NCBI RefSeq assembly: GCF_000948285.1
Contig: NZ_JYBP01000003.1
Coordinates: 2,356,001 to 2,420,000, forward strand
Source: Geobacillus kaustophilus
GTDB taxonomy: Bacteria > Bacillota > Bacilli > Bacillales > Anoxybacillaceae
Length of the DNA stretch: 64,000 nt
Direction of reading: 5' to 3'
In this document: positions 1,701 to 24,248 of the stretch, piece by piece
Layout of the letters: the number at the start of each line of letters is the position of its first letter
Numbering within the stretch: position 1 is the first letter of the stretch
Translations under genes and position numbers: made by a program
Notes under the pieces: generated by a model
The model's database searches: none
Told to the model about the DNA's origin: nothing
The model's input: only the letters and a program-made list of their open reading frames with translations

Positions 1701-2117
1701 ATGTATCGGATTAGCGAACTAGCAAAACGGTGTGGAGTGAATAAAGAAACGATCCGCTATTATGAAAAGCGGCAGCTACTCCCACTACCTACAAGAACAG
1801 AAGCGGGATATCGTTTATATTCCGATGCAGACGCAAAGCGCGTCCAATTCATTAAACGTCTGCAACAACTAGGGTTTTCGCTGACGGAAATTCATCAGCT
1901 GCTCGGCGTTGTCGATCAAGACACGGAAAGATGCAAAAACATGTATGAATTTGTGTCAAAAAAAGTGGACGAGGTGAAAAGGCAAATTGAAGACTTACAG
2001 CGAGTCGTATGTGTGCTGCAGGACTTACAAAAGCGGTGTCCAGATGAAAAAACATTGTATGAATGTCCGATTATTGAAACGTTGGTTCATGAGAAAGGAG
2101 ATTGTTATGAATCGTAA
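1701..2117 (+). CDS. merR: Hg(II)-responsive transcriptional regulator MerR
   Basis: A 138-residue MerR protein. Residues 3-70 form the winged helix-turn-helix (ISELAKRCGVNKETIRYYEK), followed by a long dimerisation helix. Three cysteines at 78, 113 and 122 have the same 35- and 9-residue spacing as the mercury-binding cysteines 82, 117 and 126 of Tn501 MerR, which separates it from lead, cadmium or copper relatives. It binds the dyad in the long-spacer promoter just upstream, repressing without Hg(II) and activating with it. Start: ATG preceded by TTGGAGGTG. It is first in the operon rather than divergent, as in other Gram-positive mer loci, and overlaps merF by 11 bases. Confidence 0.93.
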   Translation: MYRISELAKRCGVNKETIRYYEKRQLLPLPTRTEAGYRLYSDADAKRVQFIKRLQQLGFSLTEIHQLLGVVDQDTERCKNMYEFVSKKVDEVKRQIEDLQRVVCVLQDLQKRCPDEKTLYECPIIETLVHEKGDCYES

Positions 2118-2337
2118 AAAGACGTTTATCGTAGGAATTGTTGGAACAGTAGTTACTTTATTATGTTGTGCTACCCCTATCTTAGTCATTTTGCTGGGGG
2201 CAGTTGGATTAGGTGCCATCACTGGCTATTTAGATTATGTTTTGCTGCCGGCGTTAGTTGTTTTTCTTATGCTCGCTTTTTATTCTTACCATCAGTCAAA
2301 AAAATCTTCATCCAAGAACGACTCGTGTTGCTCGTAA
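2107..2337 (+). CDS. merF: MerF-like mercuric ion transport protein
   Basis: A 76-residue membrane protein with two predicted helices (about 8-28 and 38-60). The vicinal cysteine pair in the first helix (LLCCATPILV) is the MerF Hg(II)-binding site, and the following GAVGLGAITGYLDYVLLPAL is typical of the family. A further C-terminal Cys pair (DSCCS) may hand Hg(II) onward. It would import Hg(II) across the membrane to the cytoplasmic reductase. The ATG at 2107 overlaps the end of merR and follows GAAAGGAG. Length is close to characterised MerF proteins. Confidence 0.85.
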   Translation: MNRKKTFIVGIVGTVVTLLCCATPILVILLGAVGLGAITGYLDYVLLPALVVFLMLAFYSYHQSKKSSSKNDSCCS

Positions 2338-2349
2338 CAGGTGATAACT

Positions 2350-2652
2350 ATGAAAGAAAAAATTTCACAGCTGGCAACGTTATTTTCTGCCTTTGTGATG
2401 GCTGGTTGTTGTTTAGGCCCATTGATTTTCATTCCTCTCGGGTTAACAGGCTTAGCTGGTGGATTAGCCATTTACGCTTTAAAATATCAAACGATGTTAA
2501 TGATTGTTACGATCGTTTTACTTGCATACTCTTTTTATCTTGTTTATGGACGGGAATGCAAAAAGAAAAGTTCTGTTGCTAGCTTGTGGATGACAACAGT
2601 GGCTGTATTAGGAATGTTTCTGTATACGCTCATTGAAAAAGGGTATCTATAA
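2350..2652 (+). CDS. merT: MerT-like mercuric transport protein
   Basis: A 100-residue protein with three hydrophobic segments (about 8-30, 40-62 and 78-95). The first carries the vicinal cysteines in GCCLGPL that mark MerT. A further single cysteine (RECKKK) lies in the loop after helix 2. MerT passes Hg(II) from the extracytoplasmic MerP to the N-terminal domain of MerA. The ATG at 2350 is preferred over an in-frame GTG at 2341 because the AGGTG ribosome site lies 8 bases before it. It sits between merF and merP, so the operon encodes two different importers. Confidence 0.8.
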   Translation: MKEKISQLATLFSAFVMAGCCLGPLIFIPLGLTGLAGGLAIYALKYQTMLMIVTIVLLAYSFYLVYGRECKKKSSVASLWMTTVAVLGMFLYTLIEKGYL

Positions 2653-2668
2653 GAAAGGGGGATCTCGT

Positions 2669-2977
2669 ATGACATATAAAAAGACAATATTTAGTGTTTT
2701 TTTCGCGTTGCTACTTTTTCTTTCAGCGTGCAACAATACAAAAAATGCAGCTACTACCAGTAGCGACCAATCTGTTTCTTTTACAGTAACAAAGATGTAT
2801 TGCACCAGTTGCCCGTTTGTAGTGGAGAATGCTATCAAAAGTGTTGACGGTGTACATAATGTCACCGTGAAATCAATTGGAACCGAGGGGAGAGTTACCG
2901 TTTTTTTTGACGATACAAAGACCGATGTGAAAACGATAAAAAAATCTGTCTTAGAGTTAGGATATGGAATAAAATAA
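2669..2977 (+). CDS. merP: MerP-like mercury-binding lipoprotein
   Basis: A 102-residue secreted protein. A lipoprotein signal (about 1-20, LLLFLSAC with the lipobox cysteine) replaces the periplasmic signal of Gram-negative MerP, so the protein should be tethered to the outer membrane face. Residues about 35-102 are a heavy-metal-associated domain with the metal site MYCTSCP. It captures Hg(II) and gives it to MerT or MerF. The ATG at 2669 follows AAAGGGGG; the longer in-frame start at 2633 would spoil the signal peptide. Next gene begins 15 bases downstream. Confidence 0.85.
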   Translation: MTYKKTIFSVFFALLLFLSACNNTKNAATTSSDQSVSFTVTKMYCTSCPFVVENAIKSVDGVHNVTVKSIGTEGRVTVFFDDTKTDVKTIKKSVLELGYGIK

Positions 2978-2992
2978 AGGAGAGTGTTCAAC

Positions 2993-4609
2993 ATGAAAAC
3001 ATATAAAGTCCGTGTAGACGGAATGACGTGTACAGGTTGTGAAGCTCACGTTGCTGCAGCTCTTAAGCAACTTGGCGCAACATCTATTGATGTTAGTTTT
3101 CGCCGTGGTGAAGCGGTGTTTGAACTTCCTCATGCCAACGTTGAAACGGCAAAACAAGCCATAACGGCGGCTGGTTATGAGCCGACAGAAGCGGAGGAAA
3201 TCGAAGCAACAAGAGAAACATATGACTACATCATTATCGGCTCTGGTGCTGCCGCTTTTGCGTCGGCAATTGAGGCAAGAAAATACGGGGCAAAAGTTGC
3301 CATGATTGAACGGGGAACGATAGGAGGAACATGCGTTAATATCGGCTGTGTACCTTCGAAAACGTTGCTTCGGGCAGGAGAAATAAACTACCTTGCGAAA
3401 AATCATCCGTTTCTTGGGTTGCATACATCTGCCGGAACGGTCGATTTATCTGCACTAATCGAACAAAAAAATGAATTGGTACAAAACCTACGTCAAGCGA
3501 AATATATCAATCTCATCGACGAATATGGATTTACGCTTATTCAAGGAGAAGCGGTATTCTTAGACGAAACGACAGTAGAAGTCAACGGGAAAAAATTATC
3601 AGCTAACCGCTTCCTTATTGCCACAGGCGCTGCTCCGGCAATTCCTAATATTCCTGGGCTTGCGGATGTTGAGTACGTCACAAGTACGACGCTACTCGAA
3701 CGAAAGGAAGTACCTAAACGATTGGCGGTCATCGGTTCTGGTTATATTGGCATCGAACTCGGGCAACTGTTTCATCATCTCGGTTCTGACGTCACATTGA
3801 TGCAACGAAGCCCTCGGCTATTAAAAACATACGACCAAGAAATTTCAGAAGCGATAACAAAAGCGCTCACTACTCAAGGCGTCCGCCTCCTCACAGGAGT
3901 GGCCTTTGAACGCATTGAACAAGACGGAAACGTGAAAAAAATATATGTAGAAATCGACGGGAAAAAACAGGTGATTGAAGCGGATGAGTTGCTCGTTGCT
4001 ACTGGAAGAACACCGAATACGGCAACATTGCGTTTAGAAGCGGCTGGGGTGACAACAGGTTCGCGTGGCGAAATTATTGTTAATGACTATTTACAAACAA
4101 CGAATCCGCGCATTTATGCGGCAGGTGATGTCACACTTGGTCCGCAATTTGTCTATGTCGCCGCATACGAAGGAGCGATTGCCGCAGCGAACGCTGTTGG
4201 CGGACAACAGAAAAAAATTCAGCTTGAAACAATCCCAGCGGTTACGTTTAGTTCTCCCGTAGTCGCAATCGTCGGACTAACGGAACAGCAAGCAAAAGAA
4301 AAAGGATACGAAGTAAAAACATCTGTTTTGCCGTTAGAAGCTGTCCCGAGAGCCATTGTCAATCATGAAACAGTCGGTGTCTTTAAATTAGTCGCCGATG
4401 CAAAAACAGGGAAATTGCTTGGAGCTCACGTTGTCGCAGAACATGCAGGGGAAATCATTTATGCAGCGACACTCGCCATTAAATTCGGCTTAACGATAAA
4501 CGACCTCCGTGAAACGCTCGCTCCGTATTTAACGATGGCAGAAGGACTAAAGCTCGCGGCATTAACGTTTGACCAAGATGTCGGAAAGTTATCTTGTTGT
4601 GCGGGATAA
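2993..4609 (+). CDS. merA: Mercuric reductase MerA
   Basis: A 538-residue cytoplasmic flavoenzyme reducing Hg(II) to volatile Hg(0) with NADPH. Domain order: one N-terminal heavy-metal-associated domain (1-68, GMTCTGC), FAD-binding domain ([14 protein letters not shown]), redox-active disulfide ([12 protein letters not shown]), NAD(P)-binding [11 protein letters not shown], and a dimerisation domain ending LSCCAG, the C-terminal cysteine pair that delivers Hg(II) to the partner active site. All diagnostic residues are present. The ATG at 2993 lies 9 bases after AAAGGAGA; a GTG at 2984 is an alternative. A terminator follows and no merB is present, so resistance should cover inorganic mercury only. 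Confidence 0.95.
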
Positions 4610-4641
4610 AAACTGGCTCGCTTATCTTCTTGCGTAAATAA

Positions 4642-4680
4642 AAAGGGGTGCCAAAGAAAAAATGAGGCACCCTTTCTTTT
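4642..4680. terminator. Bidirectional terminator between merA and the DsrE-like gene
   Basis: GGGTGCC (4646-4652) pairs with GGCACCC (4666-4672), with a T run on the plus strand and an A run on the other side giving a T run on the minus strand. It can end both convergent transcripts. Confidence 0.8.
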
Positions 4681-4729
4681 GAACTATATTCGTTTTTCCA
4701 CGGAGAAGACTACCTGCTGCTTACACAAT

Positions 4730-5083
4730 TTATAAAATGATGAGTTGATATCCTTGATCGATGAATGAAGAGATGCTTGGATGACCATTTTTCTCGCCTA
4801 GTGAATTAAATCCAGATTTCTCTACGTCTTCCGCAACCCCAAACGCGCCAGCACAATATTCACATACTCCTTCAATAACATCTAACTGTTTTACTGTTTT
4901 GTATAACGGGTAGTATTTATTTTCTGGCTCCTCGAATTTTCTAATCCAAACAGTACCTGCCCCATCAAACACTACCTTCACTTCATGTCCCGCTTCCTTT
5001 AGCTCTTGGGCATAAAGTAAAGCGTGCAACGCCTTTGCTAATTCACTTTCATTAGCATGAACAAAAATAGCTACTTTCTTCAT
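4730..5083 (-). CDS. DsrE/DsrF-like family protein
   Basis: A 117-residue cytoplasmic protein with the DsrE/F fold pattern: an N-terminal strand and helix (KKVAIFVHANESELAKALHALLYAQEL), VKVVFDGAGTVW, and the cysteine-containing loop GVCEYCAGAFG at about residues 72-82. Cysteines at this position are where DsrE-type sulfurtransferases carry persulfide, so sulfur handling is plausible but unproven. The start follows GAGGAGG. It is transcribed divergently from the YnjB-like operon, and the shared spacer contains a palindrome (5143-5160) with a -10-like TATATT (rc of 5117-5122) at activator spacing. Confidence 0.75.
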   Translation of the reverse strand: MKKVAIFVHANESELAKALHALLYAQELKEAGHEVKVVFDGAGTVWIRKFEEPENKYYPLYKTVKQLDVIEGVCEYCAGAFGVAEDVEKSGFNSLGEKNGHPSISSFIDQGYQLIIL

Positions 5084-5142
5084 TTTGTGACCTCCTCGAT
5101 TTCATTTACATTATTAAATATACTGAAACAATCACAGGATAT

Positions 5143-5160
5143 CTGTAAGCTGTATTACAG
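5143..5160. promoter_or_regulatory. Crp-type operator 1, divergent promoters
   Basis: CTGTAAGCTGTATTACAG is a CTGTAA-N6-TTACAG dyad, nearly identical to the sites at 12568 and 15959. Its centre lies 29.5 bp from TATGCT (5181-5186) on the plus strand and 29.5 bp from TATATT on the minus strand. That places it near -41.5 for both the ABC operon and the DsrE-like gene, the geometry of class II activation by Crp/Fnr proteins. The cognate regulator is inferred to be the protein at 11827-12504. Confidence 0.75.
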
Positions 5161-5221
5161 AAATATTTACTTAAATCTCGTATGCTGATGAAGCAAACAA
5201 AAGAAATGAGGAGGACAAAAT

Positions 5222-6460
5222 GTGAAACAGTTATTTGCTCTTCTTTTATCTATTTTTATCTTTTTAAGTGCATGTAGTACAAAAGAATTATCATCTGCAT
5301 CCGAAGCGAAATTACTGGATAAGAAATGGGGACAAATTGAACAAGAAGCAAAAAACACAAAGGTACGAATATTTATGTGGGGAGGAGATGAAGGAATTAA
5401 TCATTATATGGATGAATGGGTAGCCCCAAAACTAAAAAAACAATATGGAATTACACTTGAACGAATTCCAATGGATACACACGAATTTTTACAAAAATTA
5501 CTAAACGAAAAGAAAGCAGAGAAAGAGAAAGGAACAATCGATATCATTTGGATTAATGGAGAAAACTTTAAAAATGCCAAAGAGAATGATTTACTATTTG
5601 GTCCTATCACGAACAAACTTCCTAATTTCCAAAAATATATAGACGCTCACAGTTTAAATATACAATATGATTTCGGTACAGCTGTAGACGGATTAGAAGC
5701 ACCATGGGGAAAGGTTCAATTTGTATTTTTGTATGACGCAAATAAAATATCTCAGCCGCCTAGAACATTTGCTGAGTTAAAGCATTGGATAAAAGAGCAC
5801 CCTGGAAAATTCACTTACCCTGAGCCAACGGACTTTACAGGAAATGCATTTTTACGTCACCTCCTTTACGAGTCAGTAGGCGGATCTGAAAAATTACTAG
5901 AACGAGGGTATGATCCACAATTTGTAAAAAATAAAGCAGAGAAAATGTGGACATATTTAAATGAAATCAAACCGTATTTGTGGCATAGGGGAGAAACGTA
6001 TCCGAATTCTTTAACAGAACTTGATCGTCTATATAGTCAAGGAGAAGTATGGATGACAATGGGGTACAATGAAGCTCGAGCAGAAAGTCTAATAAAAAAC
6101 GGAATATTTCCAAAATCTACTCGTTCTTTTGTGTTTGAATCTGGATCAATCGGTAATACACATTTTTTAGCTATTCCTTTTAACAGTCCAAATAAAGCCG
6201 GTGCGATGGTAACCATTAACTTTCTTCTATCCCCTAAAGCACAGTTAGAAAAGTTTCGTCCAACATATTGGGGAGAAGGCATGTCATTAGATCCGAGCAA
6301 GTTATCTGAACAAGACCAACAAGCATTAAACGAAATCAATCGTGGGAAATCAGTATTACCAACAGATATCTTAAAAAAGCACTTACTTCCAGAAGTAGAT
6401 CCGCGTTACGTGGGATGGCTGAAGGAGAATTGGCTCCATGAAATTGTTCGGAAAAAGTAA
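5222..6460 (+). CDS. YnjB-like ABC transporter substrate-binding lipoprotein
   Basis: A 412-residue lipoprotein with signal and lipobox (LFLSAC-type, IFLSACST) at residues 1-19. The mature part resembles E. coli YnjB: MWGGDEGINHYMDEW, then the family signature TIDIIWINGENF near residue 110 and LLFGPITNKLPN. The ligand is unknown; YnjB is related to iron, thiamine and polyamine binding proteins of the type II fold. The GTG start is supported by GAGGAGG 8 bases upstream, since the ATG just before it reads straight into a stop. It opens a seven-gene operon and overlaps the first permease by 23 bases. Confidence 0.85.
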   Translation: MKQLFALLLSIFIFLSACSTKELSSASEAKLLDKKWGQIEQEAKNTKVRIFMWGGDEGINHYMDEWVAPKLKKQYGITLERIPMDTHEFLQKLLNEKKAEKEKGTIDIIWINGENFKNAKENDLLFGPITNKLPNFQKYIDAHSLNIQYDFGTAVDGLEAPWGKVQFVFLYDANKISQPPRTFAELKHWIKEHPGKFTYPEPTDFTGNAFLRHLLYESVGGSEKLLERGYDPQFVKNKAEKMWTYLNEIKPYLWHRGETYPNSLTELDRLYSQGEVWMTMGYNEARAESLIKNGIFPKSTRSFVFESGSIGNTHFLAIPFNSPNKAGAMVTINFLLSPKAQLEKFRPTYWGEGMSLDPSKLSEQDQQALNEINRGKSVLPTDILKKHLLPEVDPRYVGWLKENWLHEIVRKK

Positions 6461-7304
6461 TTTGTTGTTTCTTCTTCCACCATTTATTTTAACAATTGCA
6501 CTCGTTGGATACGGAGTGATCATGGCTATCTCAGAAAGTATACACAAGAACGAACAATTGACTTTCCAATATTATGTCGACGTATTCGCAAACGATATCT
6601 TTATTGCATCGCTGAATTATAGCCTTTCGATTGCTTTTGTATCCACCTTTTTTTCTATATTCATTGGTTTATTGATTACAAGATGGCTTTATCGTTGTTG
6701 GAAAAACGATTTTCTGAAAATTGTATACTGGATTCCAATGTTATTTCCTCATTTTGTTTGGGGATATATGATGGTGTTATTGTTTTCACAAACTGGATGG
6801 TTTTCTTCACTTGTATACAATATAGGTATCATTCATAAACCGAATGAATTTCCAGTCATCATAAATGATTCTCATGGAATTGGAATAATAATTACGTACG
6901 TTTTAAAAGAAACGCCTTTCGTTATACTCATGCTTCTTCCAGCCTATCATCAACTGAATCACCAGTTATCCTCCGTCGTGAGGACACTTGGTGGAAAAGA
7001 ATGGGATGTATTTAAAACGGTGGAGTGGCCATGGATTATGCCGATTCTGTTCGAAACGAGCATCATCGTTTTTTCATTTATTTTATCTGCTTATGAAGTA
7101 CCATATTTACTTGGCACGACGTATCCAAAAATGATTTCTCTCCTTGTTTACGAATGGTTTTTTGAAGGGGATTGGAGTAATCGTCCGAAAGCGTTCGCTG
7201 CTATGTTGAGTGTAACGATGTTTATTTTCTCTATTATGATGGCATATACTTCCCTCTTAATAAAGAAGCGATATCACATGATGAAAGGGAATGGAAAAGT
7301 GTGA
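6438..7304 (+). CDS. ABC transporter permease, YnjC N-terminal-half type
   Basis: A 288-residue inner-membrane protein with about six hydrophobic helices. The cytoplasmic coupling loop (VRTLGGKEWDVFKTVEWPWIMP, near residues 180-200) is a diverged EAA motif that contacts the ATPase. E. coli YnjC is a single polypeptide of about 510 residues; here its two halves are separate genes. This protein pairs with the next gene to form the channel. The start overlaps the binding-protein gene and the stop overlaps the next start (GTGA), suggesting translational coupling. Confidence 0.83.
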   Translation: MKLFGKSNLLFLLPPFILTIALVGYGVIMAISESIHKNEQLTFQYYVDVFANDIFIASLNYSLSIAFVSTFFSIFIGLLITRWLYRCWKNDFLKIVYWIPMLFPHFVWGYMMVLLFSQTGWFSSLVYNIGIIHKPNEFPVIINDSHGIGIIITYVLKETPFVILMLLPAYHQLNHQLSSVVRTLGGKEWDVFKTVEWPWIMPILFETSIIVFSFILSAYEVPYLLGTTYPKMISLLVYEWFFEGDWSNRPKAFAAMLSVTMFIFSIMMAYTSLLIKKRYHMMKGNGKV

Positions 7305-8095
7305 TTAGAAAGAGGAACAATCTCATTTTCTTTTTTTCTACTTTATTTCTAGTCATACCCGTTATCTTATTAGCATTAAAGAGTTTCTCTTTTTCTTGGA
7401 GATACGGGGATCTATATCCAAAAATATGGAGTTTGAACGGGTGGAAAATTTTATTAAAAGAACCACGGATATGGCAAGCCATTCAATCTTCATGGTTAAT
7501 CGGTATTACCGTCGTTTTATTGAATTTATTAATTGCTATACCTGCCGGGAGAACCATTGCTTTTCATTCTTTCAGAGGAAAATGGTTTTTTGAGTTACTA
7601 TTCACACTTCCGATCTTGATTCCAAGCTTAGCTGTAGTTATGGGACTTCATCTAACAATGATTCGACTAGGGCTCACTGACCATTGGATGGGCGTTGTCA
7701 TCGTTCACTTACTTCCATCTGTTCCATATACAATTAAAATATTTCATTCTTCTTTTGAACGAATCGGACCGCATTTGGAAGACCAAGCTGTTTCACTCGG
7801 TAGTAGCAAATGGTACAGTTTTTATTCGATTTACCTACCGCTTCTTGTACCAAGTATAAGAAGCACTGTGTTTCTTGTTTTCGTTATTTCTCTTAGTCAA
7901 TACGTATTGACGGCAATAATTGGTGGTGGAAATGTTGTGACAATTGCAACTCTTTATTTTCCATTTTTATCAACAGTAAAGGAATCGGTTATCTCAAGCT
8001 TTTCGCTTATTTTTGCCATTTTGCCGCTGACTGTACTTCTCTTATTTGAGTTTCTGATTCAAATTTTTATTCCTTATCGAAAACAGAATGGTTGA
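7301..8095 (+). CDS. ABC transporter permease, YnjC C-terminal-half type
   Basis: A 264-residue membrane protein with six likely helices. Its EAA-like loop reads AVSLGSSKWYSFYSIYLPLL at about residues 160-180. The GTG start at 7301 overlaps the stop of the preceding permease. Sequence style matches the second membrane domain of two-component iron/thiamine/spermidine type permeases. It should form a heterodimer with the previous gene product and use the ATPase encoded nine bases downstream. Confidence 0.83.
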   Translation: MIRKRNNLIFFFSTLFLVIPVILLALKSFSFSWRYGDLYPKIWSLNGWKILLKEPRIWQAIQSSWLIGITVVLLNLLIAIPAGRTIAFHSFRGKWFFELLFTLPILIPSLAVVMGLHLTMIRLGLTDHWMGVVIVHLLPSVPYTIKIFHSSFERIGPHLEDQAVSLGSSKWYSFYSIYLPLLVPSIRSTVFLVFVISLSQYVLTAIIGGGNVVTIATLYFPFLSTVKESVISSFSLIFAILPLTVLLLFEFLIQIFIPYRKQNG

Positions 8096-8104
8096 GGTGT
8101 GTAT

Positions 8105-9091
8105 ATGAGAGATGCATTTATTTCCCTCAATTCTTTAAAAAAAGCATATGGAAATGAAACAGTTTTTCACTCAATTAATCTGGATATAAATGAAGGGGAA
8201 ATGATCAGTTTGATAGGACCATCAGGAGCAGGGAAATCAACACTTCTTCGATGCATAGCAGGTCTGGAAGAATTAGATGAAGGCCATATATGGATTGAAG
8301 GAAAAGACATGTCAGCAGAGCCTGCTCATCGTCGCACGATTGTCATGATGTTTCAACAACCGTTATTATTTCCCCATATGACAGTAACTGAAAACATAAT
8401 GTACGGGTTAAATTTCACAAAAATGACAAAGAGGGAGCGACTAGAACAAGTATCGTTATATTTAAAAAAAATTAACATGGAGAACTTTCGAGACTTTTAT
8501 CCATTCCAATTATCTGGTGGACAGCAACAACGTGTTTCACTAGCGAGAGCATTAATTACCAACCCAAAGTTGTTGCTGCTCGATGAACCTCTTAGCAGCC
8601 TTGACAATGAATTGAGAGCAGAAATTCGCTTATGGATGAAACAATGGTTAAAAGAAAAAAAAATATCGACAATTTTTATTACACATGACAAGGAAGAAGC
8701 AATGTTGATCGGGGATCGAGTAGTTGTGATGGGAAAGAAAATCATCCAACAATGTGGGAGTCCTATACAAGTATATGATTACCCGGCTAATTCATTCGTC
8801 GCAGAATTTTTTAGCGATGGTATCGTCATCAATAACGAATTGTTTATTCATACGAAACATTTAGAAATGTCTACTTCTCCAAATGAAAGATGGTATGTGA
8901 AATGGAAAGGGCTTGTAAAAGAAGCATTCATGAAATATGGGAAGTTTTTCTATCAGATAAATATCATCGATTTGCAAACAGATGTCATCATTCAAAGCGA
9001 TGTTCCTTTTTCTAACATGCAATATGTTTGGGTTGGTGTGCATTCAAAGGGACATATTCAAACATTTAAAAAGGATGAAGAAACATGTTAA
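8105..9091 (+). CDS. ABC transporter ATP-binding protein, YnjD-like
   Basis: A 328-residue ATPase. Walker A GPSGAGKST lies near residue 40, the Q-loop in MMFQQPLLFPHMT, the ABC signature LSGGQQQR near 138, Walker B LLLLDEPLSSLD, and the switch histidine in FITHDKEEA. Residues past about 230 form a small C-terminal extension of the kind that senses substrate or regulators in the CUT1/spermidine/iron group. The ATG at 8105 follows TTGAGGTG; a GTG at 8099 is in frame but too close to the ribosome site. It overlaps the next gene by 7 bases. Confidence 0.88.
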   Translation: MRDAFISLNSLKKAYGNETVFHSINLDINEGEMISLIGPSGAGKSTLLRCIAGLEELDEGHIWIEGKDMSAEPAHRRTIVMMFQQPLLFPHMTVTENIMYGLNFTKMTKRERLEQVSLYLKKINMENFRDFYPFQLSGGQQQRVSLARALITNPKLLLLDEPLSSLDNELRAEIRLWMKQWLKEKKISTIFITHDKEEAMLIGDRVVVMGKKIIQQCGSPIQVYDYPANSFVAEFFSDGIVINNELFIHTKHLEMSTSPNERWYVKWKGLVKEAFMKYGKFFYQINIIDLQTDVIIQSDVPFSNMQYVWVGVHSKGHIQTFKKDEETC

Positions 9092-9744
9092 AACGAACAA
9101 TATGGAAAGTAATCGTATCCATAGTCATTATTATCTTTATTATTTGGTTTAATCAACATTATATTAATATAAAACCACAAGCAATACGTGAGTGGATTTT
9201 ATCTTTTGGAACATTTGCACCTATAATCTTTATCGGCATATATACAGTTCGTCCATTTCTTTTCTTCCCTGCTTCTATTCTTTCATTAGCAGCGGGATTA
9301 GCGTTTGGTTCATGGTGGGGGACTATCTACACTGTCATTGGCGCAACGATGGGAGCCAGCTTGTCTTTTTTTGTCGCTAAAAAATTGGGAGAACGAATGA
9401 TTCGTAAAAGTTGGAAAGGGAAAACAACGAAACTGCGAACACAATTACAAAAAAATGGGTTTTCGTATGTGCTTTTATTACGACTAGTTCCGATTTTTCC
9501 GTTTGATTTCGTCAGCTATTTAGCCGGAATAGCAAATGTGAAGTTCGTCCATTTTCTAATGGCGACATGGATCGGTATTATCCCTGGAACGTTTGCTTAT
9601 AATTTTTTGGGCTCAAGTGTTGTTTCAGAAAATCAAATAATAATTGGTTTGGCCGTCTTTGTGTTTGTCATCGTTTCACTTATACCAATTATGACAAATA
9701 CAAAAATACGACAAAAATTAGGATTACAACAGAAAGGAGAATAA
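9085..9744 (+). CDS. TVP38/TMEM64-family membrane protein (YdjX/YdjZ-like)
   Basis: A 219-residue polytopic protein of the VTT/SNARE-associated Golgi family. Recognisable segments are FFPASILSLAAGLAFGSWWG, the GATMGASLSFFVAK core and RLVPIFPFDFVSYLAGI near residues 128-145, with the characteristic proline- and glycine-rich re-entrant loops. The transported species is not known for bacterial members. In E. coli, ydjX and ydjZ sit in the same operon as ynjBCDF. In many bacteria TVP38 domains are fused to or adjacent to MerA-like flavin reductases, the same partnership as here. Confidence 0.85.
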   Translation: MLKRTIWKVIVSIVIIIFIIWFNQHYINIKPQAIREWILSFGTFAPIIFIGIYTVRPFLFFPASILSLAAGLAFGSWWGTIYTVIGATMGASLSFFVAKKLGERMIRKSWKGKTTKLRTQLQKNGFSYVLLLRLVPIFPFDFVSYLAGIANVKFVHFLMATWIGIIPGTFAYNFLGSSVVSENQIIIGLAVFVFVIVSLIPIMTNTKIRQKLGLQQKGE

Positions 9745-9746
9745 CT

Positions 9747-10328
9747 GTGCTCGATACACATGCGAGAAAATATGTGCAACCCCTTATTGAAACGACCGCT
9801 TCCTCTTTTTTGAAAATAGGATTAACGGCGAACCAAGTCACTATGATATCTTTTTTGATTGGTCTTTCTTCAGGAATTCTTTTTTATTTTGATTATGCAG
9901 TTGCAGCCATCGTCGTATTATGGATTTCTGGATTTTTAGATGCGGTCGACGGAACGATGGCAAGAAAGACAAACGTGTCGCCATGGGGCACAGTTATGGA
10001 TGTAACATTTGATCGCGTTGTTGAAATTAGTGTCATTTTAGGAATTGCGTTTAAGTATCCTCATGTCCAATGGGCTCTTCTGTTATTGAGTGTTTCAATT
10101 ATTTTTTCCATTACGGTGTTTTTAACAGTGGGTGCTGTTTCTGAAAAAAAAGGAATGAAATCATTTTATTATCAAGCGGGGTTGGCTGAACGTACAGAAG
10201 GATTTCTTTTCTTTTCTTTTATGATGTTGCTGCCTAATTATGTTTTGATTATTACGTTGTTATTTTTTGTAGTAGAAATGTTTACAGGGTTACAACGTTT
10301 ACATGAAGCTCGACAACTTTTGCGCTGA
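9747..10328 (+). CDS. CDP-alcohol phosphatidyltransferase, YnjF-like
   Basis: A 193-residue integral membrane enzyme. The catalytic signature D-G-x2-A-R-x8-G-x3-D-x3-D is complete in DAVDGTMARK...GTVMDVTFD near residues 63-88. Such enzymes displace CMP from a CDP-lipid with an alcohol. This gene is not the housekeeping PgsA: it lies in the ABC operon, as ynjF does in E. coli, so a dedicated lipid or polyol product is possible. The GTG start is preceded by AAAGGAG. About six helices are predicted. Confidence 0.85.
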   Translation: MLDTHARKYVQPLIETTASSFLKIGLTANQVTMISFLIGLSSGILFYFDYAVAAIVVLWISGFLDAVDGTMARKTNVSPWGTVMDVTFDRVVEISVILGIAFKYPHVQWALLLLSVSIIFSITVFLTVGAVSEKKGMKSFYYQAGLAERTEGFLFFSFMMLLPNYVLIITLLFFVVEMFTGLQRLHEARQLLR

Positions 10329-10343
10329 AAGGGTGTGAGATAA

Positions 10344-11771
10344 TTGAAACAATATGATCTTATTGTCATCGGTGGAGGGGCAGGAGGATTGACTGTAGCT
10401 GCCGGGGCAGCTTCTCTTGGAGCGAGAGTAGCTCTTATCGAAAAAGAAACACACCTTGGTGGTGATTGCTTACATTTCGGCTGTGTTCCGTCAAAGGCGC
10501 TTATTAAAGTAGCTTCCGAAATATATGAAGCAAAAAAAGTAAGGGAATGGGGGATGAACATAGAAGGAAATATTAATTTAAATCAAGTTACACAGCGAAT
10601 CAAAGCAGCCATTATGCACATTCAACACCATGACGATATTGACCGATTTAAAAAATTAGGGGTCGATGTGTATATTGGTAAAGGAAAATTACGTTCTGCT
10701 CATCACGTATGGATCAACGATGAGGAAACGATATTTGGAAAGCGCATAGTCATTTCAACAGGATCAAGACCTTTTGTGCCTCAGATTGATGGTTTAGAAA
10801 AAGTTAATTATTTAACAAATGAAACAATATTCAACATTGATTTCGTGCCTAAAAAGCTTCTTGTCATTGGCGGTGGTCCAATCGGTATAGAACTCGCTCA
10901 AGCCATGGCAAGGCTAGGGAGTGAAGTGATTGTTATTGAACGTTCTAATGAGATATTACAACAAGAAGATGAAGAAATCGTTCAATTAGTAAAAAAACAA
11001 CTGATGCGTGAGCTAACGATATATACTAATGCATCTATTCAAAAAATCATAGCTACGGAAAATAATAAAAAAATTGCTGTAATCCACACTCAGGACAGGG
11101 AAATCGAGATGGAAGTCACCGATATCCTGATTGCTTCTGGAAGAGTTCCTAATACAGATACAATTGACCTAGATAGAGCGGGTGTTCAGTACGATAACAA
11201 AGGACATATTATCGTGAATGAATATTTGCAGACAAATGTTCCGACTATTTATGCGATCGGAGATGTAAATGGAAAATTCCCATTTACACATGTAGCTGGA
11301 ATGGAAGGGAAACTAGTTGTACAAAATGCTGTACTAGGACTAAAACGAAAAATAAACTATTCGAATGTGCCATGGGTCACATTCACTCATCCGGAAATTT
11401 TCCATATAGGATTAACAGAACAACAAGCCCGCCAACAACACGATCATATTCATATCTTTAAAACACCATTATCTACTGTTGATCGTTTCGTAGCAGACTT
11501 CCAAACAGAAGGAATGGTAAAAATAATTACTGATAAAAAAGGATACATCATTGGAGCACATGCTGTAGGCCAAAACGCAGGGGATTGGATGCAGGAAGTA
11601 GTATTTGCTAAGCAGTTTGGTAAAAAAATTGGTCAACTCTCTCATGTCATACACCCATATCCAACTCATGTAGCAGCCGTTCAACATACAGCTGACTTAT
11701 ATTGGCGCGAGAAATTATTTCGCGGCTGGATTCCAAAATTAGTGAAACAATACATTCGATTATTCCGATAA
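10344..11771 (+). CDS. MerA-like FAD-dependent pyridine nucleotide-disulfide oxidoreductase
   Basis: A 475-residue flavoprotein of the lipoamide dehydrogenase/mercuric reductase fold. It shows the FAD site LIVIGGGAGGLTVA, redox disulfide GGDCLHFGCVPSKA, NAD(P) site VIGGGPIGIELAQ, and second FAD motif TIYAIGDV. It lacks the metal-associated N-terminus and the C-terminal cysteine pair of MerA, so it is not expected to reduce Hg(II) efficiently. The histidine pair near the C-terminus (HPYPTH) matches the family acid-base dyad region. The TTG start follows AAGGGTGTGAG. Last gene of the operon, ending 30 bases before a terminator. Confidence 0.85.
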   Translation: MKQYDLIVIGGGAGGLTVAAGAASLGARVALIEKETHLGGDCLHFGCVPSKALIKVASEIYEAKKVREWGMNIEGNINLNQVTQRIKAAIMHIQHHDDIDRFKKLGVDVYIGKGKLRSAHHVWINDEETIFGKRIVISTGSRPFVPQIDGLEKVNYLTNETIFNIDFVPKKLLVIGGGPIGIELAQAMARLGSEVIVIERSNEILQQEDEEIVQLVKKQLMRELTIYTNASIQKIIATENNKKIAVIHTQDREIEMEVTDILIASGRVPNTDTIDLDRAGVQYDNKGHIIVNEYLQTNVPTIYAIGDVNGKFPFTHVAGMEGKLVVQNAVLGLKRKINYSNVPWVTFTHPEIFHIGLTEQQARQQHDHIHIFKTPLSTVDRFVADFQTEGMVKIITDKKGYIIGAHAVGQNAGDWMQEVVFAKQFGKKIGQLSHVIHPYPTHVAAVQHTADLYWREKLFRGWIPKLVKQYIRLFR

Positions 11772-11800
11772 TAAGCATAAAACATAGGACAATCTAAGAA

Positions 11801-11827
11801 AAGGGACTCATTCTCGGCGAGTCCCTT
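11801..11827. terminator. Bidirectional terminator
   Basis: AAGGGACTC (11801-11809) and GAGTCCCTT (11819-11827) form a perfect 9-bp stem between the convergent oxidoreductase and regulator genes. The stem touches the regulator stop codon. Confidence 0.75.
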
Positions 11828-12504
11828 CAATAATCTAATAGCTCTAATGCTTTTTCGACATGAATAGCTAAATGAATTCCTTTTTTAATAAAGCCGTCTC
11901 TTTTTAATTGACTCATAACTGCGCTTGTTGTTTCGCGCGATGCACCAACCATGCTAGCGATGTCTTGATGGGTGAGCTTCATTCCAATTGTTTGCCATTC
12001 CTTTTTTCGTTTTCCTGTTTTTTCGCTTAGTTTCAATAACAAATACAAAATCCGATATTTCACATCACTTAAGGCGATTTTTTCACTTAAGCTGTATAAT
12101 TCTTTTAACCTCGTTGACAATATATGAATAAGTTTCAAAGCGATTTTTGGGTTTTTTTCGATAAATGTTTCAAATTCTTTTTTACCTAACAAGCATAAGT
12201 ACGTATCAGTCATTGCTTCCGCATATATTTGATCATCCGTTAATGATAAAGTGGATGTTTCACCAAAAATATTTCCATCAACTAAAATATCAACTGTAAA
12301 CTGCTTTCCGCTTGCGTTCATACGATACAAACGTACTTGCCCCTTTTTTAGCAAGAACAACGCTTCAATTTTTTTGTCTGGAGATAGGATAAGCGTTCCT
12401 TTTTTTACAGGTTTCATTTCGCTTATTTGATCAATGATGTGCAACTCTTCCATCGGTAGCTCATCAAGTAGACTAATTTGTGACAATAAAAATAACTTAT
12501 CCAC
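11827..12504 (-). CDS. Crp/Fnr-family transcriptional regulator
   Basis: A 225-residue regulator: N-terminal cyclic-nucleotide-binding-type beta-barrel (about 10-125, with GQVRLYRMNASGKQFTVDIL and GNIFGETSTL), a long dimer helix, and a C-terminal winged helix whose recognition region reads HQDIASMVGASRETTSAVMS (about 175-195). No cysteine cluster for iron-sulfur is present, so it is not a classical Fnr oxygen sensor; the signal is unknown. GTG start after AAGGAGG. The divergent spacer to the glutaredoxin gene holds palindrome 2. Because that palindrome recurs upstream of the other transcription units, this protein is the likely local regulator and probably autoregulated. Confidence 0.85.
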   Translation of the reverse strand: MDKLFLLSQISLLDELPMEELHIIDQISEMKPVKKGTLILSPDKKIEALFLLKKGQVRLYRMNASGKQFTVDILVDGNIFGETSTLSLTDDQIYAEAMTDTYLCLLGKKEFETFIEKNPKIALKLIHILSTRLKELYSLSEKIALSDVKYRILYLLLKLSEKTGKRKKEWQTIGMKLTHQDIASMVGASRETTSAVMSQLKRDGFIKKGIHLAIHVEKALELLDY

Positions 12505-12567
12505 GTTACATATGCCTCCTTAGCAATAAACTCCCTCTTTACATTATAGCTGTTTTTTTATCGATTC

Positions 12568-12585
12568 CTGTAATCCATCTTACAG
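12568..12585. promoter_or_regulatory. Crp-type operator 2, regulator/glutaredoxin spacer
   Basis: CTGTAATCCATCTTACAG is the reverse orientation of the same dyad seen at 5143 and 15959. Its centre is 29.5 bp from TAAAAT (12606-12611) serving the glutaredoxin gene and 28.5 bp from TATAAT (rc of 12543-12548) serving the regulator. This fits activation and autoregulation. Confidence 0.75.
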
Positions 12586-12633
12586 TATGTGAGAAAATAA
12601 TGGTGTAAAATAGTTACGCTAGGAGGTTTTTTT

Positions 12634-12861
12634 ATGAATTATATTCTTTATACGATCGATGGTTGTAGTAAATGTCATATGGCACGAAAGCATTTACTTG
12701 AAGAAAATATCCCTTTTTTAGAAATAAATATATTAAAAAACCCTTCTGCTGCTATACAATTAAAGAAAAAGATGAAAGAGATCATTGCTCCCGTGCTCGT
12801 TTCAGATGACAGAATCATTGTCGGAAGTGACATTTTATTAATGAAAGGAGAAATAAGATGA
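12634..12861 (+). CDS. Glutaredoxin-like protein
   Basis: A 75-residue thioredoxin-fold protein with the dithiol site CSKC at residues 11-14 (TIDGCSKCHMARKHL) and the cis-proline segment IAPVLV typical of NrdH/glutaredoxin-like proteins. C-terminal VGSDILLMKGEI ends the short fold. It would reduce disulfides or bind a metal or cluster in the cytoplasm. AGGAGG precedes the ATG by 8 bases. Its last bases overlap the start of the following signalling gene (ATGA), so the two proteins are translationally coupled, and operator 2 sits upstream. Confidence 0.85.
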   Translation: MNYILYTIDGCSKCHMARKHLLEENIPFLEINILKNPSAAIQLKKKMKEIIAPVLVSDDRIIVGSDILLMKGEIR

Positions 12862-13619
12862 GAAACGAAAATATTCAAACAATTAAAAATGCAAAACAAG
12901 TAATGGGAAATCAAAAAGAACAGATGGGACAGTTTCTTCACCTTGCAGAAGACATTGTAAACTTGTCCATTGTTTTATCGGAAATGTCTAGCCAAATTAA
13001 CGAACAAGTAGATGAAGCAGCTACCTATGCAAAAGATGGAAAATTGTCTATGGATGAGATGACGAAGGTAATGGAAAGTATTGATGGTTTATCTTCTATG
13101 TTATTAAATAAATCAAATATATTATTGGATTTGTCTACTTTATTAACAGAAATTATCCAATCGCTACACAAAATATCTGCCCAAACCAATTTGTTAGCTT
13201 TAAATGCTTCGATTGAAGCAGCGAGGGCAGGAGTAGATGGAAGAGGATTTGGTGTTGTTGCTCAAGAAATCCGAAAACTTTCTGATGAAAGCACAAATGC
13301 AACAACACAAGCTAGGCAATCGGTCACTTCTATTATCAATGAAATAAAGAGTATTTATCAATTATCTAAGTCAGGAAGAGAAGAAATGGAAAAAGGAATG
13401 GATATCGTCCAAAAAACAGTAGAACGATTTAATTGTATCGATCAATCAATTTCTCGTGTAAATCAACAAAAAGCTGATCTAACTTCCATTTCTTCCATAT
13501 TAAAAGAAAAAAGCGCTCAATTGGGGACGTTAAGCAATTCCATTTCCCAAAATCGTCAAGTTATTGCAAAAGGATTAGATGCAGCGCTAGATGTATATAA
13601 TTTACCAACCACAGAATGA
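12858..13619 (+). CDS. Soluble methyl-accepting chemotaxis-type signalling protein
   Basis: A 253-residue cytoplasmic coiled-coil protein. The highly conserved hairpin tip of methyl-accepting proteins is present (NLLALNASIEAARAG then GFGVVAQEIRKLSDES, about residues 110-145). There is no transmembrane helix, HAMP or PAS domain; residues 1-60 are a helical region of unknown role. Such short soluble receptors usually sense through a partner or a small N-terminal domain. Coupling to the glutaredoxin gene by a 4-base overlap makes a redox partner plausible, but that is inference. The 3' end overlaps the convergent transporter gene by 59 bases. Confidence 0.85.
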   Translation: MRNENIQTIKNAKQVMGNQKEQMGQFLHLAEDIVNLSIVLSEMSSQINEQVDEAATYAKDGKLSMDEMTKVMESIDGLSSMLLNKSNILLDLSTLLTEIIQSLHKISAQTNLLALNASIEAARAGVDGRGFGVVAQEIRKLSDESTNATTQARQSVTSIINEIKSIYQLSKSGREEMEKGMDIVQKTVERFNCIDQSISRVNQQKADLTSISSILKEKSAQLGTLSNSISQNRQVIAKGLDAALDVYNLPTTE

Positions 13620-14676
13620 TGGGAGGGATGATGAGCAATATGTAGGGAACAGCACCGTGTTTATTAACTGCTGTTCTCATTCCATGCATACACACAATCG
13701 GCGCGCTAAGTATAAATGACCATCCAGCAACAGCGGATACTAACTTCTCTGAAAAAGATAAGTCAGAAAACAACCATGTAACAGTTCGAACAACAAATAC
13801 AGCAACAATAATTGTTTTTAATATAAGTATAAAAAAGAATGTATAAGACAATCGAGTCCAATCAAAAAAAGCTATTTTTTGTATTGAAGTCATAATAAAT
13901 AAATACAGTCCTACTGTCCCTAGTTGTTGCAACATGATCGTTTTTTCATCCGGTTTTAATTGTTTAGTTTTCGCTAATAAACCATAACAGAAACCACCAA
14001 ACATTGCATACACATAATCATAAAGAAAAAGCACCGTTATATGTTGAGTAAGTACGACAATTCCGAATGAAAACAGGATAACATAAGCTGTTTCCCTCGT
14101 GAAAGGAATTGTCATTTTTTCTTGATACAAATGGTTGATTAGATCCATGCTATTAGAAATGTTCTGTTTTTTCAACCATTTACTCACGATCAGTAAAAAA
14201 ACAGGTGTTAGAAAAAAAACAATAGCTAACTGTCCATAACCCCAGAATACGATCTCACTTTGAATATAAGACGGGACAGTCAATTTGATGAAATCTTCAT
14301 TATACGCAAAAAACCAGTCGCCCATAATAAAATTATACGGTTGTGGAACGAAATATGATATGAATGCGAAAGAAAATAATAATGCAACACATATTGCTAA
14401 CAAAATGACGAAACGTTTGAAAAAAAGTTTATTCACAAAAAGGGATATTTGAAAGCCGATCGAGAATAAAAAAATAGTGACAGCAACCCTTTGAAATAAA
14501 AAAGGTGACTCTAGAGAATAATGAAAAATCACTTTTGTCAAAATAGTGATAATTAACAAAATAACACTTCCGATAAAAGGGATAGACAAGTAATAACGGT
14601 GTAAATGGTATTTGCGTTCAAGGAGTTCACTAATTTTAAGTATTATCCCTAATAAAGCAGTAAATAAAATAACCAT
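13561..14676 (-). CDS. ESS/GltS-like membrane transporter
   Basis: A 371-residue protein with about ten hydrophobic helices. The C-terminal stretch, with small residues, a histidine and a proline-rich final helix (NKHGAVPYILLIIPPIILW), resembles the end of sodium/glutamate symporters of the ESS family, and FLFSIGFQISL resembles their early helix. Similarity is partial, so the substrate is not assigned; a CPA-type cation antiporter is the alternative. It is convergent with the signalling gene, overlapping its 3' end, and divergent from the dehalogenase. No copy of the operator dyad was found in its 5' spacer. Confidence 0.55.
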   Translation of the reverse strand: MVILFTALLGIILKISELLERKYHLHRYYLSIPFIGSVILLIITILTKVIFHYSLESPFLFQRVAVTIFLFSIGFQISLFVNKLFFKRFVILLAICVALLFSFAFISYFVPQPYNFIMGDWFFAYNEDFIKLTVPSYIQSEIVFWGYGQLAIVFFLTPVFLLIVSKWLKKQNISNSMDLINHLYQEKMTIPFTRETAYVILFSFGIVVLTQHITVLFLYDYVYAMFGGFCYGLLAKTKQLKPDEKTIMLQQLGTVGLYLFIMTSIQKIAFFDWTRLSYTFFFILILKTIIVAVFVVRTVTWLFSDLSFSEKLVSAVAGWSFILSAPIVCMHGMRTAVNKHGAVPYILLIIPPIILWLVNYIHLALHLILLQ

Positions 14677-14761
14677 GACTGTATATATCCCCCTATATTT
14701 ATAACTTACAAAACAACCTATAGAAGAAACAAAAAGCTTAAATCCACAAAGGAGTGTAACT

Positions 14762-15424
14762 ATGAAATACCGAGCTTATGTATTTGATGTGTATGGTACA
14801 TTATTTGATGTGTATTCTATTTCTGAAAAGTGCACATACTATTTTGGGGATAAAGGCATATCAATCAGCCAATCATGGCGCCAAAAGCAACTGGAGTATT
14901 GTTTTTTACGCCAAATCATCGGCACGTATATCCCGTTTCACGAAATTACAAAAAACGCACTCCAATACGTATGTACTGTTGAACAAGTATACATAACAGA
15001 AGAAATCATTACCGATTTGTTACAAGCTTATCACTATCTTTCATTATTTACAGAAGTGAAACAAGCACTGGAAATGTTACAAAGCGAAACACTTGTTGTT
15101 TTTTCCAATGGCTCTGTTGATATGCTACTTCCTTTGCTAAATAATTCAGGGTTAACGAGCTATTTCCACTATATCGTCAGCGTAGATGAAATTAAACAGT
15201 ATAAACCTTCTCCGCTAGCGTATCAGCACGTATGTAATCGGCTAAACATGCAGCCAAAAGAGATTTTATTTTTATCTTCGAATACATGGGATATTGTAGG
15301 CGCTAGCCAATTCGGATTTCAAACTGCTTGGATTAACCGTGAAAAAGCGACTATGGATTTACTTGACGTCACACCTAATTATATGGTAAACAATCTGCAA
15401 GAGCTAATCGTGCAACAGAAATAA
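14762..15424 (+). CDS. HAD-superfamily (S)-2-haloacid dehalogenase-type hydrolase
   Basis: A 220-residue cytosolic HAD enzyme. Motif I is FDVYGTLFDVY with the nucleophilic Asp9, motif II FSNGS, motif III lysine in YKPSP, motif IV LSSNTWDIVGA. The motif IV wording (SSN-x-WD-x-x-GA) is specific to haloacid dehalogenases of the L-DEX group rather than phosphatases, though real substrates of such genes are often unknown. ATG preceded by AAAGGAG. Stands alone between two minus-strand genes and ends in a bidirectional terminator. Confidence 0.85.
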   Translation: MKYRAYVFDVYGTLFDVYSISEKCTYYFGDKGISISQSWRQKQLEYCFLRQIIGTYIPFHEITKNALQYVCTVEQVYITEEIITDLLQAYHYLSLFTEVKQALEMLQSETLVVFSNGSVDMLLPLLNNSGLTSYFHYIVSVDEIKQYKPSPLAYQHVCNRLNMQPKEILFLSSNTWDIVGASQFGFQTAWINREKATMDLLDVTPNYMVNNLQELIVQQK

Positions 15425-15440
15425 AAAGAACATAGGGAGA

Positions 15441-15470
15441 GGGATCGAATTATTTTTCGATCCCTTTTTT
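15441..15470. terminator. Bidirectional terminator after the HAD gene
   Basis: GGGATCGAA (15441-15449) pairs with TTCGATCCC (15456-15464), followed by six T on the plus strand. It lies just before the stop of the convergent membrane-protein gene. Confidence 0.85.
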
Positions 15471-15474
15471 AAGA

Positions 15475-15900
15475 TTAATTCGTTACATTCACATCCGTCT
15501 CTGCCGTTTTTCTTTCTGCTATCTTAACTGTTGCTGCGAGAACAAACGAGAAAAATAAGTGCGTCATCAAACTCATTAATTGTTGTGGTTCAAAAGCATG
15601 GGCTATCATTGTTCCCATACCAAGCATAAGTGGCATAATCACTAGGGGACCTACAATCCAAATTATAATTCCATAAATGACTGATAAGATAAACATATGT
15701 TTAGTAAATGTGACAAGGTAACCAAATACTGCACCAAAAATGATACTAATTATCATATGAATACCCCAACCAACAACGGTACTTTTGCTTCCCACCATCA
15801 TTGCAATCATCGGAATCATCCCCATCATTTGCATCATAATCCCAAATATGATTCCGCCAACTACGCCACCGAGTACTCCTGTTTTTAATAAACGACTCAT
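15475..15900 (-). CDS. Methionine-rich small membrane protein
   Basis: A 141-residue integral membrane protein with four predicted helices. The first two helices are unusually rich in methionine and glycine (GIMMQMMGMIPMIAMMVG; PLMLGMGTMIAH), a composition seen in some metal- or oxidation-related membrane proteins and in YagU-like proteins; I do not recognise the family firmly. The ATG at 15900 is 9 bases from AAGGAG; a TTG two codons upstream is too close. The promoter region contains dyad 3 with TATGAT (rc of 15933-15938) at 29.5 bp, so it belongs to the Crp-type regulon. Confidence 0.75.
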   Translation of the reverse strand: MSRLLKTGVLGGVVGGIIFGIMMQMMGMIPMIAMMVGSKSTVVGWGIHMIISIIFGAVFGYLVTFTKHMFILSVIYGIIIWIVGPLVIMPLMLGMGTMIAHAFEPQQLMSLMTHLFFSFVLAATVKIAERKTAETDVNVTN

Positions 15901-15958
15901 ATTCAAGCACTCCTTTCTTGTTTTGTAAATCCATCATACAAAAAAACGATTAGAATTA

Positions 15959-15976
15959 CTGTAAGCTGGATTACAA
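15959..15976 (-). promoter_or_regulatory. Crp-type operator 3, upstream of the Met-rich membrane protein
   Basis: CTGTAAGCTGGATTACAA differs from the full dyad only in its last base. Its centre is 29.5 bp from TATGAT on the minus strand. No convincing -10 is found at the equivalent plus-strand distance. Confidence 0.7.
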
Positions 15977-16098
15977 CCTGTAAAGTCGGAAGGAGAGAAT
16001 GAATGACACCAACGGTTTTCGAAGTGAGTATTGTTGAACAACATTTTTATTTTTCCGATCGCTGGCACAAAAACCATGCCGAGGCTAAAAACGAAAGC

Positions 16099-16279
16099 GG
16101 TGTCAGAAACGACACCAGCTTCTTGTTTAATCTTTTTTCTTTAATACTTCCTTTAACAAATCACCTAAACTTGTGCCAAATGATTCGTTTTCGGCACTAT
16201 ATTTTTTCAATAACGCCCGTTCTTTTTGACCAAGTTTTGCTTTTTTCTGCTCATTGGCTTTTTCAATGACATTGCAAGG
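16099..16279 (-). pseudogene. C-terminal remnant of an unknown minus-strand gene, with terminator
   Basis: Minus-strand codons from the IS21 edge at 16279 to a stop at 16127 read a charged helical tail (KANEQKKAKLGQKER then LGDLLKEVLKKKD, about 50 residues). A stem GGTGTC/GACACC (16099-16116) followed by T-rich sequence on the minus strand follows, as expected after a real gene. The N-terminal part has been removed by the IS21 insertion. I do not recognise the family; the short start within the IS terminal repeat is fortuitous. Confidence 0.45.
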
Positions 16280-16371: not shown

Positions 16372-18326
<1,955 letters not shown>

Positions 18327-24093: not shown

Positions 24094-24248
24094 CGGGATA
24101 AAGAATGACAAACGATGGTAAAAAAAGGATGCCATCGCTTTTGGTGTTGGTTTAAAAGTTATGCTAAAAAACTGAATAAAAAATCCTTTTGTTCCGCTCT
24201 ACCAAGGTGCGAAATATGAGTTTATCATCATGAACGGTTTCAAAAAAA

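Follow-up and report, generated by a model that had tools for sequence, protein, structure and literature searches.

A 64,000-nucleotide stretch of the Geobacillus kaustophilus genome, hereafter the window, contains an 11-kb block in which a gene for a regulator of the Crp/Fnr family stands among a seven-gene ATP-binding cassette (ABC) operon and genes for a DsrE-like, a glutaredoxin-like and a Met-rich membrane protein. Three matching palindromes in this block raise the question whether the regulator, for which we use the working name REG, acts at them and, if so, on which genes, in which direction and in response to which signal. Based on the window, the whole genome to which it belongs (G000; 3,684,318 bases) and related genomes, we suggest that REG, its box and a set of target genes very probably form a circuit with an autoregulated Crp/Fnr activator, in which binding of the box by REG is predicted from sequence.

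The box is confined to one block of the genome

The first-pass annotation of the window had described three palindromes of the form CTGTAA-N6-TTACAG, the third with one mismatch, and the sequence bears out this description (Table 1). The simplest reading of such sites is that they are three chance palindromes, and on the window alone their number is indeed not striking because 18 of 100 window shuffles give at least three sites at no more than two mismatches. However, when the whole genome was screened at no more than one mismatch, these were the sole three sites and all lie within the 11-kb block; the reversed control pattern gave 13 sites. Together with the half-site enrichment, the peak in promoter spacing and the association with REG described below, this uniqueness statistically refutes chance, to which we assign next to no probability. 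Likewise, the outcome that had been named as fatal to the proposal, i.e. a palindrome scattered at random over the genome and without a tie to homologues of REG, is not what was found.

A half-destroyed fourth box, with the single half-site TTACA left, is present at 14694-14711 of the window between genes for a 371-aa membrane protein and a HAD protein; in the related loci L047 and L048 the 18-mer is kept at this position with one mismatch.

Table 1 Boxes, -10-like hexamers and genes of the block (window positions)
Feature	Coordinates	Strand or location	Details
Box 1, CTGTAAGCTGTATTACAG	5143..5160	between DsrE-like gene and ABC operon, predicted to serve both	0 mismatches
Box 2, CTGTAATCCATCTTACAG	12568..12585	between REG and glutaredoxin genes, predicted to serve both	0 mismatches
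Box 3, CTGTAAGCTGGATTACAA	15959..15976	upstream of Met-rich membrane protein gene	1 mismatch
-10-like TATATT, DsrE-like gene	5117..5122	-	29.5 bp from dyad centre
-10-like TATGCT, ABC operon	5181..5186	+	29.5 bp from dyad centre
-10-like TATAAT, REG	12543..12548	-	28.5 bp from dyad centre
-10-like TAAAAT, glutaredoxin	12606..12611	+	29.5 bp from dyad centre
-10-like TATGAT, Met-rich membrane protein	15933..15938	-	29.5 bp from dyad centre
DsrE/DsrF-like protein	4730..5083	-	PF02635, E 4.7e-10
Solute-binding lipoprotein, PRK11622 subfamily	5222..6460	+	NF008633, 492 bits, cut-off 203
ABC permease 1	6438..7304	+	PF00528
ABC permease 2	7301..8095	+	PF00528
ABC ATPase	8099..9091	+	PF00005
VTT-domain (DedA-type) membrane protein	9085..9744	+	PF09335
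CDP-alcohol phosphatidyltransferase	9747..10328	+	PF01066; nearest solved structures are inositol-type CDP-alcohol transferases
FAD disulfide oxidoreductase, MerA-like	10344..11771	+	below MerA cut-off
Crp/Fnr-family regulator REG, 225 aa	11827..12504	-	PF00027, 6.7e-15; PF13545, 3.5e-15
Glutaredoxin-like protein (CxxC; Uxx-star/YruB-like)	12634..12861	+	PF00462
MCP signalling-domain protein	12858..13619	+	PF00015; 4-bp overlap with glutaredoxin gene
Met-rich membrane protein	15475..15906	-	18 Met of 143 residues

The spacing between box and promoter fits class II activation

For all five promoters of the block, the spacing between dyad centre and -10-like hexamer is as had been claimed, i.e. 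29.5 bp in four cases and 28.5 bp for REG itself. As a broader test of this spacing, we used 54 loci kept around REG homologues (1.02 Mb, window included) and considered the 143 sides of perfect boxes that remained once near-identical sides had been dropped. A -10-like hexamer begins 29.5 bp from the dyad centre on 49 of these sides; the shoulders of this peak comprise 11, 12 and 14 sides at 27.5, 28.5 and 30.5 bp, respectively, and beyond the box each remaining offset up to 99.5 bp accounts for 0-8 sides, except for 11 at 34.5 bp. A second peak of 48 sides at 4.5 bp is made by the box's own letters. Given a -10 hexamer that starts at -12, the 29.5-bp offset would place the dyad near -41.5 relative to the predicted start sites, and the sharp peak over many loci supports the class II position that had been proposed for the three sites. 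The -35 elements of the five window promoters are poor (best 1-3 of 6 matches to TTGACA at a spacer of 16-18 bp). Thus, the site near -41.5, the -10 hexamer and the poor -35 element of class II promoters are all present, and as far as geometry goes the layout fits that of promoters dependent on a class II activator.

We also considered that REG may bind the box mainly for repression, blocking RNA polymerase at -35 until a signal releases REG. The box does cover the -35 region, and the sharing of an operator between a regulator's own gene and its neighbour, as at Box 2, is a form of autoregulation also common among repressors. Yet a blocking operator need not keep its offset, whereas a sharp offset of 29.5 bp is what contact by an activator needs, and the poor -35 elements suggest that these promoters need help; we therefore regard repression as quite unlikely.

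Box and regulator occur together in Bacillales

The core of the box, TGTAA-N6-TTACA, occurs 80 times in the 54 loci compared to a mean of 1.9 (maximum 5) for 29 permuted half-sites, while half-site spacers other than 6 give 0-5 occurrences. In a reduced set from which near-duplicates had been removed (48 loci, 0.93 Mb), the corresponding numbers are 66 boxes versus 1.7 (maximum 4), with at least one box in 35 of the 48 loci. Although open reading frames (ORFs) of more than 100 aa cover 0.79 of the DNA, 74 of the 80 boxes lie outside them. The inner bases beside the half-sites are mostly G/T on the left and mostly C/A on the right; the left outer base is mostly C/A and the right one mostly G, T or A. 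In 17 of 53 loci a perfect box lies no more than 400 bp upstream of REG, and in 30 a box with no more than one mismatch does so (control means 0.00 and 1.55, respectively), documenting that an autoregulatory layout recurs. In L052 and L129, which hold distant REG homologues (38-39%), an asymmetric TGTGA-N6-TTACA is found nearby, as if the two halves had changed separately.

The check that the first-pass annotation had proposed, i.e. whether the palindrome goes together with homologues of the regulator in related genomes, was run on a family-level sample of 41 genomes and an order-level sample of 397 genomes, and co-occurrence was found at the levels of family, order and genus. At the family level, a REG orthologue of at least 82% identity is present in six genomes, and all six contain the perfect 18-mer compared to 4 of the remaining 35 (p = 4.7e-5); one of these 35, G034, has a 38% homologue and no perfect 18-mer. 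The ten perfect sites in the six orthologue genomes are all beside REG or its target genes: G016 has one perfect site on a separate contig with the solute-binding lipoprotein and DsrE-like genes, and in G026 and G032 the site precedes an OsmC gene adjoining REG. At the order level, presence of REG was defined as a homologue at E 1e-35, for which 61 genomes qualify, and because the perfect palindrome alone is too common (163 of the 397 genomes have one), the strict search pattern consisted of the box plus a -10 at 29.5 bp. This pattern was found in 39 of the 61 genomes with REG (86 matches) and in 24 of the 336 without (25 matches), giving p = 4.7e-22, a genome-level value that ignores relatedness; by genus, tallied by hand, it was found in 26 of 36 genera with REG and 13 of 99 without (p = 1.3e-10). 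A single scan yielded 50 loci, including ones from Anoxybacillus, Bacillus, Fictibacillus, Halobacillus, Pontibacillus, Planococcus, Salipaludibacillus and Alkalihalobacillus; two of the 50 are from metagenome-assembled genomes outside Bacillales. The pairing of regulator and box thus appears to recur in numerous related bacteria, among them soil, halophilic and thermophilic ones, and the sequence data support a regulon conserved in Bacillales and of an already known type, i.e. one run by a Crp/Fnr class II activator.

REG differs from characterized Crp/Fnr regulators

By Pfam and by a Foldseek search with its structural model, REG belongs to the Crp/Fnr superfamily (cNMP-binding-type barrel plus Crp-type helix-turn-helix), in agreement with the family assigned to this mid-block gene at first pass. 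It reaches the cut-off of none of the 12 NCBIfam models listed for it, including Fnr (50 bits, cut-off 228) and the equivalogs for CRP (69.8 bits, cut-off 266) and NtcA (71.6 bits, cut-off 244.95), placing it outside these groups. The absence of an Fnr-type cysteine cluster is confirmed: the single cysteine of REG is C104, which is also the sole invariant cysteine in an alignment of 48 homologues. Positions 92 and 93, which we take to be those of the arginines that bind the phosphate of cyclic AMP in CRP and 2-oxoglutarate in NtcA (R88), are occupied by Arg in none of the 48 sequences. The best solved relatives by profile are NtcA and CooA; the best fold matches to the model (predicted local distance difference test score 82) are GlxR, MtbCRP and CprK (3e6c, 3e5u). 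CprK, which we take to be a redox-modulated sensor of halophenols, thus resembles REG in structure; its dehalobox, TTAAT-N4-ATTAA, and, presumably, its cysteines differ from those of REG.

In the recognition helix, R190 and E191 are invariant in all 48 homologues. Position 195, aligned by eye to R185 of CRP, varies among A, L, S and T but is not Arg in any of the sequences. R185 of CRP contacts the fourth base of the TGTGA half-site, and the fourth base is the one that differs between TGTGA and the TGTAA of the REG box. Compared to Fnr/Crp regulons, with TGTGA-N6-TCACA taken as their box, REG and its sites share the spacer, the class II position found at many promoters of such regulons and the R-E pair of the recognition helix but differ in having A rather than G as the fourth half-site base, no Arg at the R185 position and no Fnr cysteine cluster. 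Moreover, a separate TGTGA set is present in REG's own genome. TGTGA-N6-TCACA occurs there at 10 sites, six of which lie in an 18-kb stretch (G000:C3:2292942-2311125, some 45 kb ahead of the window) that holds another Crp/Fnr gene, and thus this genome combines two boxes with two regulators. A limited search of the open-access literature, which cannot show absence, returned no description of the REG regulator recognizable from titles and abstract starts.

Target genes suggest a link to thiol redox

Neighbouring genes of the seven-gene ABC operon overlap or are separated by no more than 15 bp. Its solute-binding lipoprotein (SBP) can be labelled YnjB-type if, as we assume, YnjB belongs to the PRK11622 family. 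For the ligand of the SBP, there was no sequence relative in the PDB at E 0.001; a fold search with its AlphaFold2 model returned polyamine-, thiamine-, iron- and sugar-phosphate-type binders as well as maltose-binding proteins at 12-20% identity. The flavin adenine dinucleotide (FAD) oxidoreductase lies outside MerA, scoring 386.5 bits against the cut-off of 454.45 of TIGR02053, and its C-terminus reads ...YIRLFR; the hallmark of MerA is a C-terminal Cys pair. The best NCBIfam match of the glutaredoxin, NF041212, is below cut-off (48.4 bits versus 66). The labels DsrE-like and Met-rich, both given at first pass, hold.

To count targets across loci, we assigned each box to the nearest ORF start 30-330 bp downstream; in these tallies near-identical loci are counted separately, and boxes with one mismatch were included only where a -10 was present at 29.5 bp, which biases their spacing counts. 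The box precedes genes for glutaredoxin in 18 loci, REG in 17, OsmC in 16, the Met-rich protein in 16 (window and near twins included) and SBP in 15, and less often genes for VTT protein (7), thioredoxin (6), DsrE (5), CDP-alcohol transferase (5) and AhpC (1). Because OsmC, thioredoxin, AhpC and glutaredoxin genes are among those preceded by boxes, the theme points to thiol redox: judged by protein family, what the targets have in common is thiol and peroxide redox proteins beside an importer and two proteins of membrane-lipid type.

An AhpD-like gene in L082, L086, L089, L094, L102, L109 and L112 carries the motif CxY-TGA-xxHHG in 7/7 cases and probably encodes a selenoprotein; the stretch GGGGCGGCGCTCC is constant downstream of these genes.

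The circuit could instead serve nitrogen or selenium supply. With respect to nitrogen, a box GTA-N8-TAC near -41.5 is described for NtcA, the cyanobacterial nitrogen regulator (PMC3898017); NtcA is the best solved relative of REG by sequence, both have the Crp/Fnr fold, and the REG boxes contain GTA-N8-TAC at the same position relative to predicted start sites. Unlike NtcA, REG scores far below the equivalog cut-off, has no Arg at the presumed 2-oxoglutarate position, is found in Bacillales and has targets that are not recognizable nitrogen genes. With respect to selenium, the in-frame TGA in the AhpD-like gene near REG in all seven loci and the resemblance of the window glutaredoxin to a selenoprotein family speak for such a role. 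However, no SelB exceeds the cut-off in the genome to which the window belongs, and SelB is present in 33 of 61 REG genomes versus 145 of 336 others (p = 0.12, hand tally; 178 of 397 genomes over cut-off in all). Selenium as a general signal was rejected on this basis. Taken together, a nitrogen or selenium circuit is improbable, and thiol stress remains our preferred reading of the gene content.

Observations that weigh against the proposed circuit

Several observations run counter to the REG circuit as proposed. Of the 61 REG genomes, 22 contain no exact copy of box plus -10, and if the six with the most diverged homologues are set aside, 16 of 55 still contain none; a perfect box is absent from 13 of 53 REG loci. 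Conversely, the 24 matching REG-less genomes (23 match once, one twice) include G163 and G324 of genus g28, which have no REG hit at E 1e-35 yet carry the same site sequences as relatives that have REG; such sites may reflect a second factor or a regulator that escaped the search. In addition, 19 of the box-to-gene assignments, spread over 16 loci, point to genes other than those listed above, and a -10 is lacking in 15 of them. Finally, the proposed thiol-redox signal is read from gene content, and we hold this part of the proposal with somewhat less than even confidence.

Within genus g28, near-identical sequences of box plus -10 are shared among G135, G102 and G163 and among G304, G324 and G343.

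The matches in REG-less genomes would also be expected if a different Crp/Fnr protein of the genome used the boxes, and two genes in G000, REG and one more, do pass E 1e-20. That second homologue, however, sits among the six TGTGA-N6-TCACA boxes, whereas the TGTAA box tracks REG in the family- and order-level samples, making a different protein highly improbable as the user of the boxes.

The block has probably moved between genera

Positions 2967-16279 of the window share 98.7% identity over 13.3 kb with a genome of another genus (G005; locus L046), which points to a recent horizontal transfer. Near the end of the match lie two neighbouring ORFs (16372-18326) that resemble an IS21-type transposase pair. 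Directly before the block lies a mer operon (1701-4609), in which MerR, MerA and an RC607-type MerT score over cut-off and a MerP-like protein scores below cut-off. L046 and L049 likewise carry a mer operon beside the block, and L047 has part of MerA there; none is found in L050 and L051. Because of the cross-genus identity, the transposase-like boundary and the neighbouring mer operon, we infer that the circuit was probably acquired as one unit. A megablast search for the block among 72,556 plasmid records gave no match. Further downstream, positions 22971-24193 share 83% identity over 1.2 kb with DNA in the neighbourhood of the L050 REG orthologue (4528-5750).

Discussion

In our model, a REG dimer would bind TGTAA-(G/T)-N4-(C/A)-TTACA centred near -41.5 and, acting there as a class II activator, would recruit RNA polymerase. 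The three boxes of the block, two of them bidirectional, would drive five transcripts, i.e. those for the DsrE-like protein, the seven-gene ABC operon, REG, glutaredoxin plus MCP protein, and the Met-rich membrane protein, and REG would thereby activate its own gene. The signal may be thiol-redox in nature, i.e. an oxidant, an electrophile or reactive sulfur, possibly sensed via C104; the invariant C104 is the leading candidate for a sensor, if still an unlikely one. A further, speculative reading, which we also hold to be unlikely, is that REG stands for a Crp/Fnr subfamily of its own, which detects a thiol-reactive signal, such as persulfide, hypohalous or electrophile stress, via C104 in the barrel, without Fe-S, haem or cyclic nucleotide, and commands a transferable thiol-repair module with a YnjBCD-like importer.

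Parts of this gene set have a counterpart in E. coli, for which the literature is cited here from passages of the respective papers. There, ydjXYZ-ynjABCD is listed as directly FNR-regulated with an FNR site at -60.5 (PMC3688515), YdjX and YdjZ are DedA-family proteins (PMC7818093), overproduction of BaeR causes a mild, perhaps indirect, induction of the operon (PMC2731931), and genetic interactions place ynjABCDEFI in a group with Suf Fe-S assembly (PMC3930520). Thus, in both cases a predicted transporter (ynjCD in E. coli) with YnjB and DedA proteins would be under direct control of a Crp/Fnr protein; the E. coli system differs in that the site is at -60.5 and FNR is an oxygen sensor. In these passages, the E. 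coli counterpart of the gene set has no settled function.

With the circuit proposed here, the set of YnjB-type ABC transporter, VTT protein, CDP-alcohol transferase and FAD oxidoreductase gains a putative regulator, a DNA box and a list of candidate targets. That redox genes share its box allows a testable hypothesis to be framed for an orphan transporter, and searches with the box may find further members of the regulon in other Bacillales.

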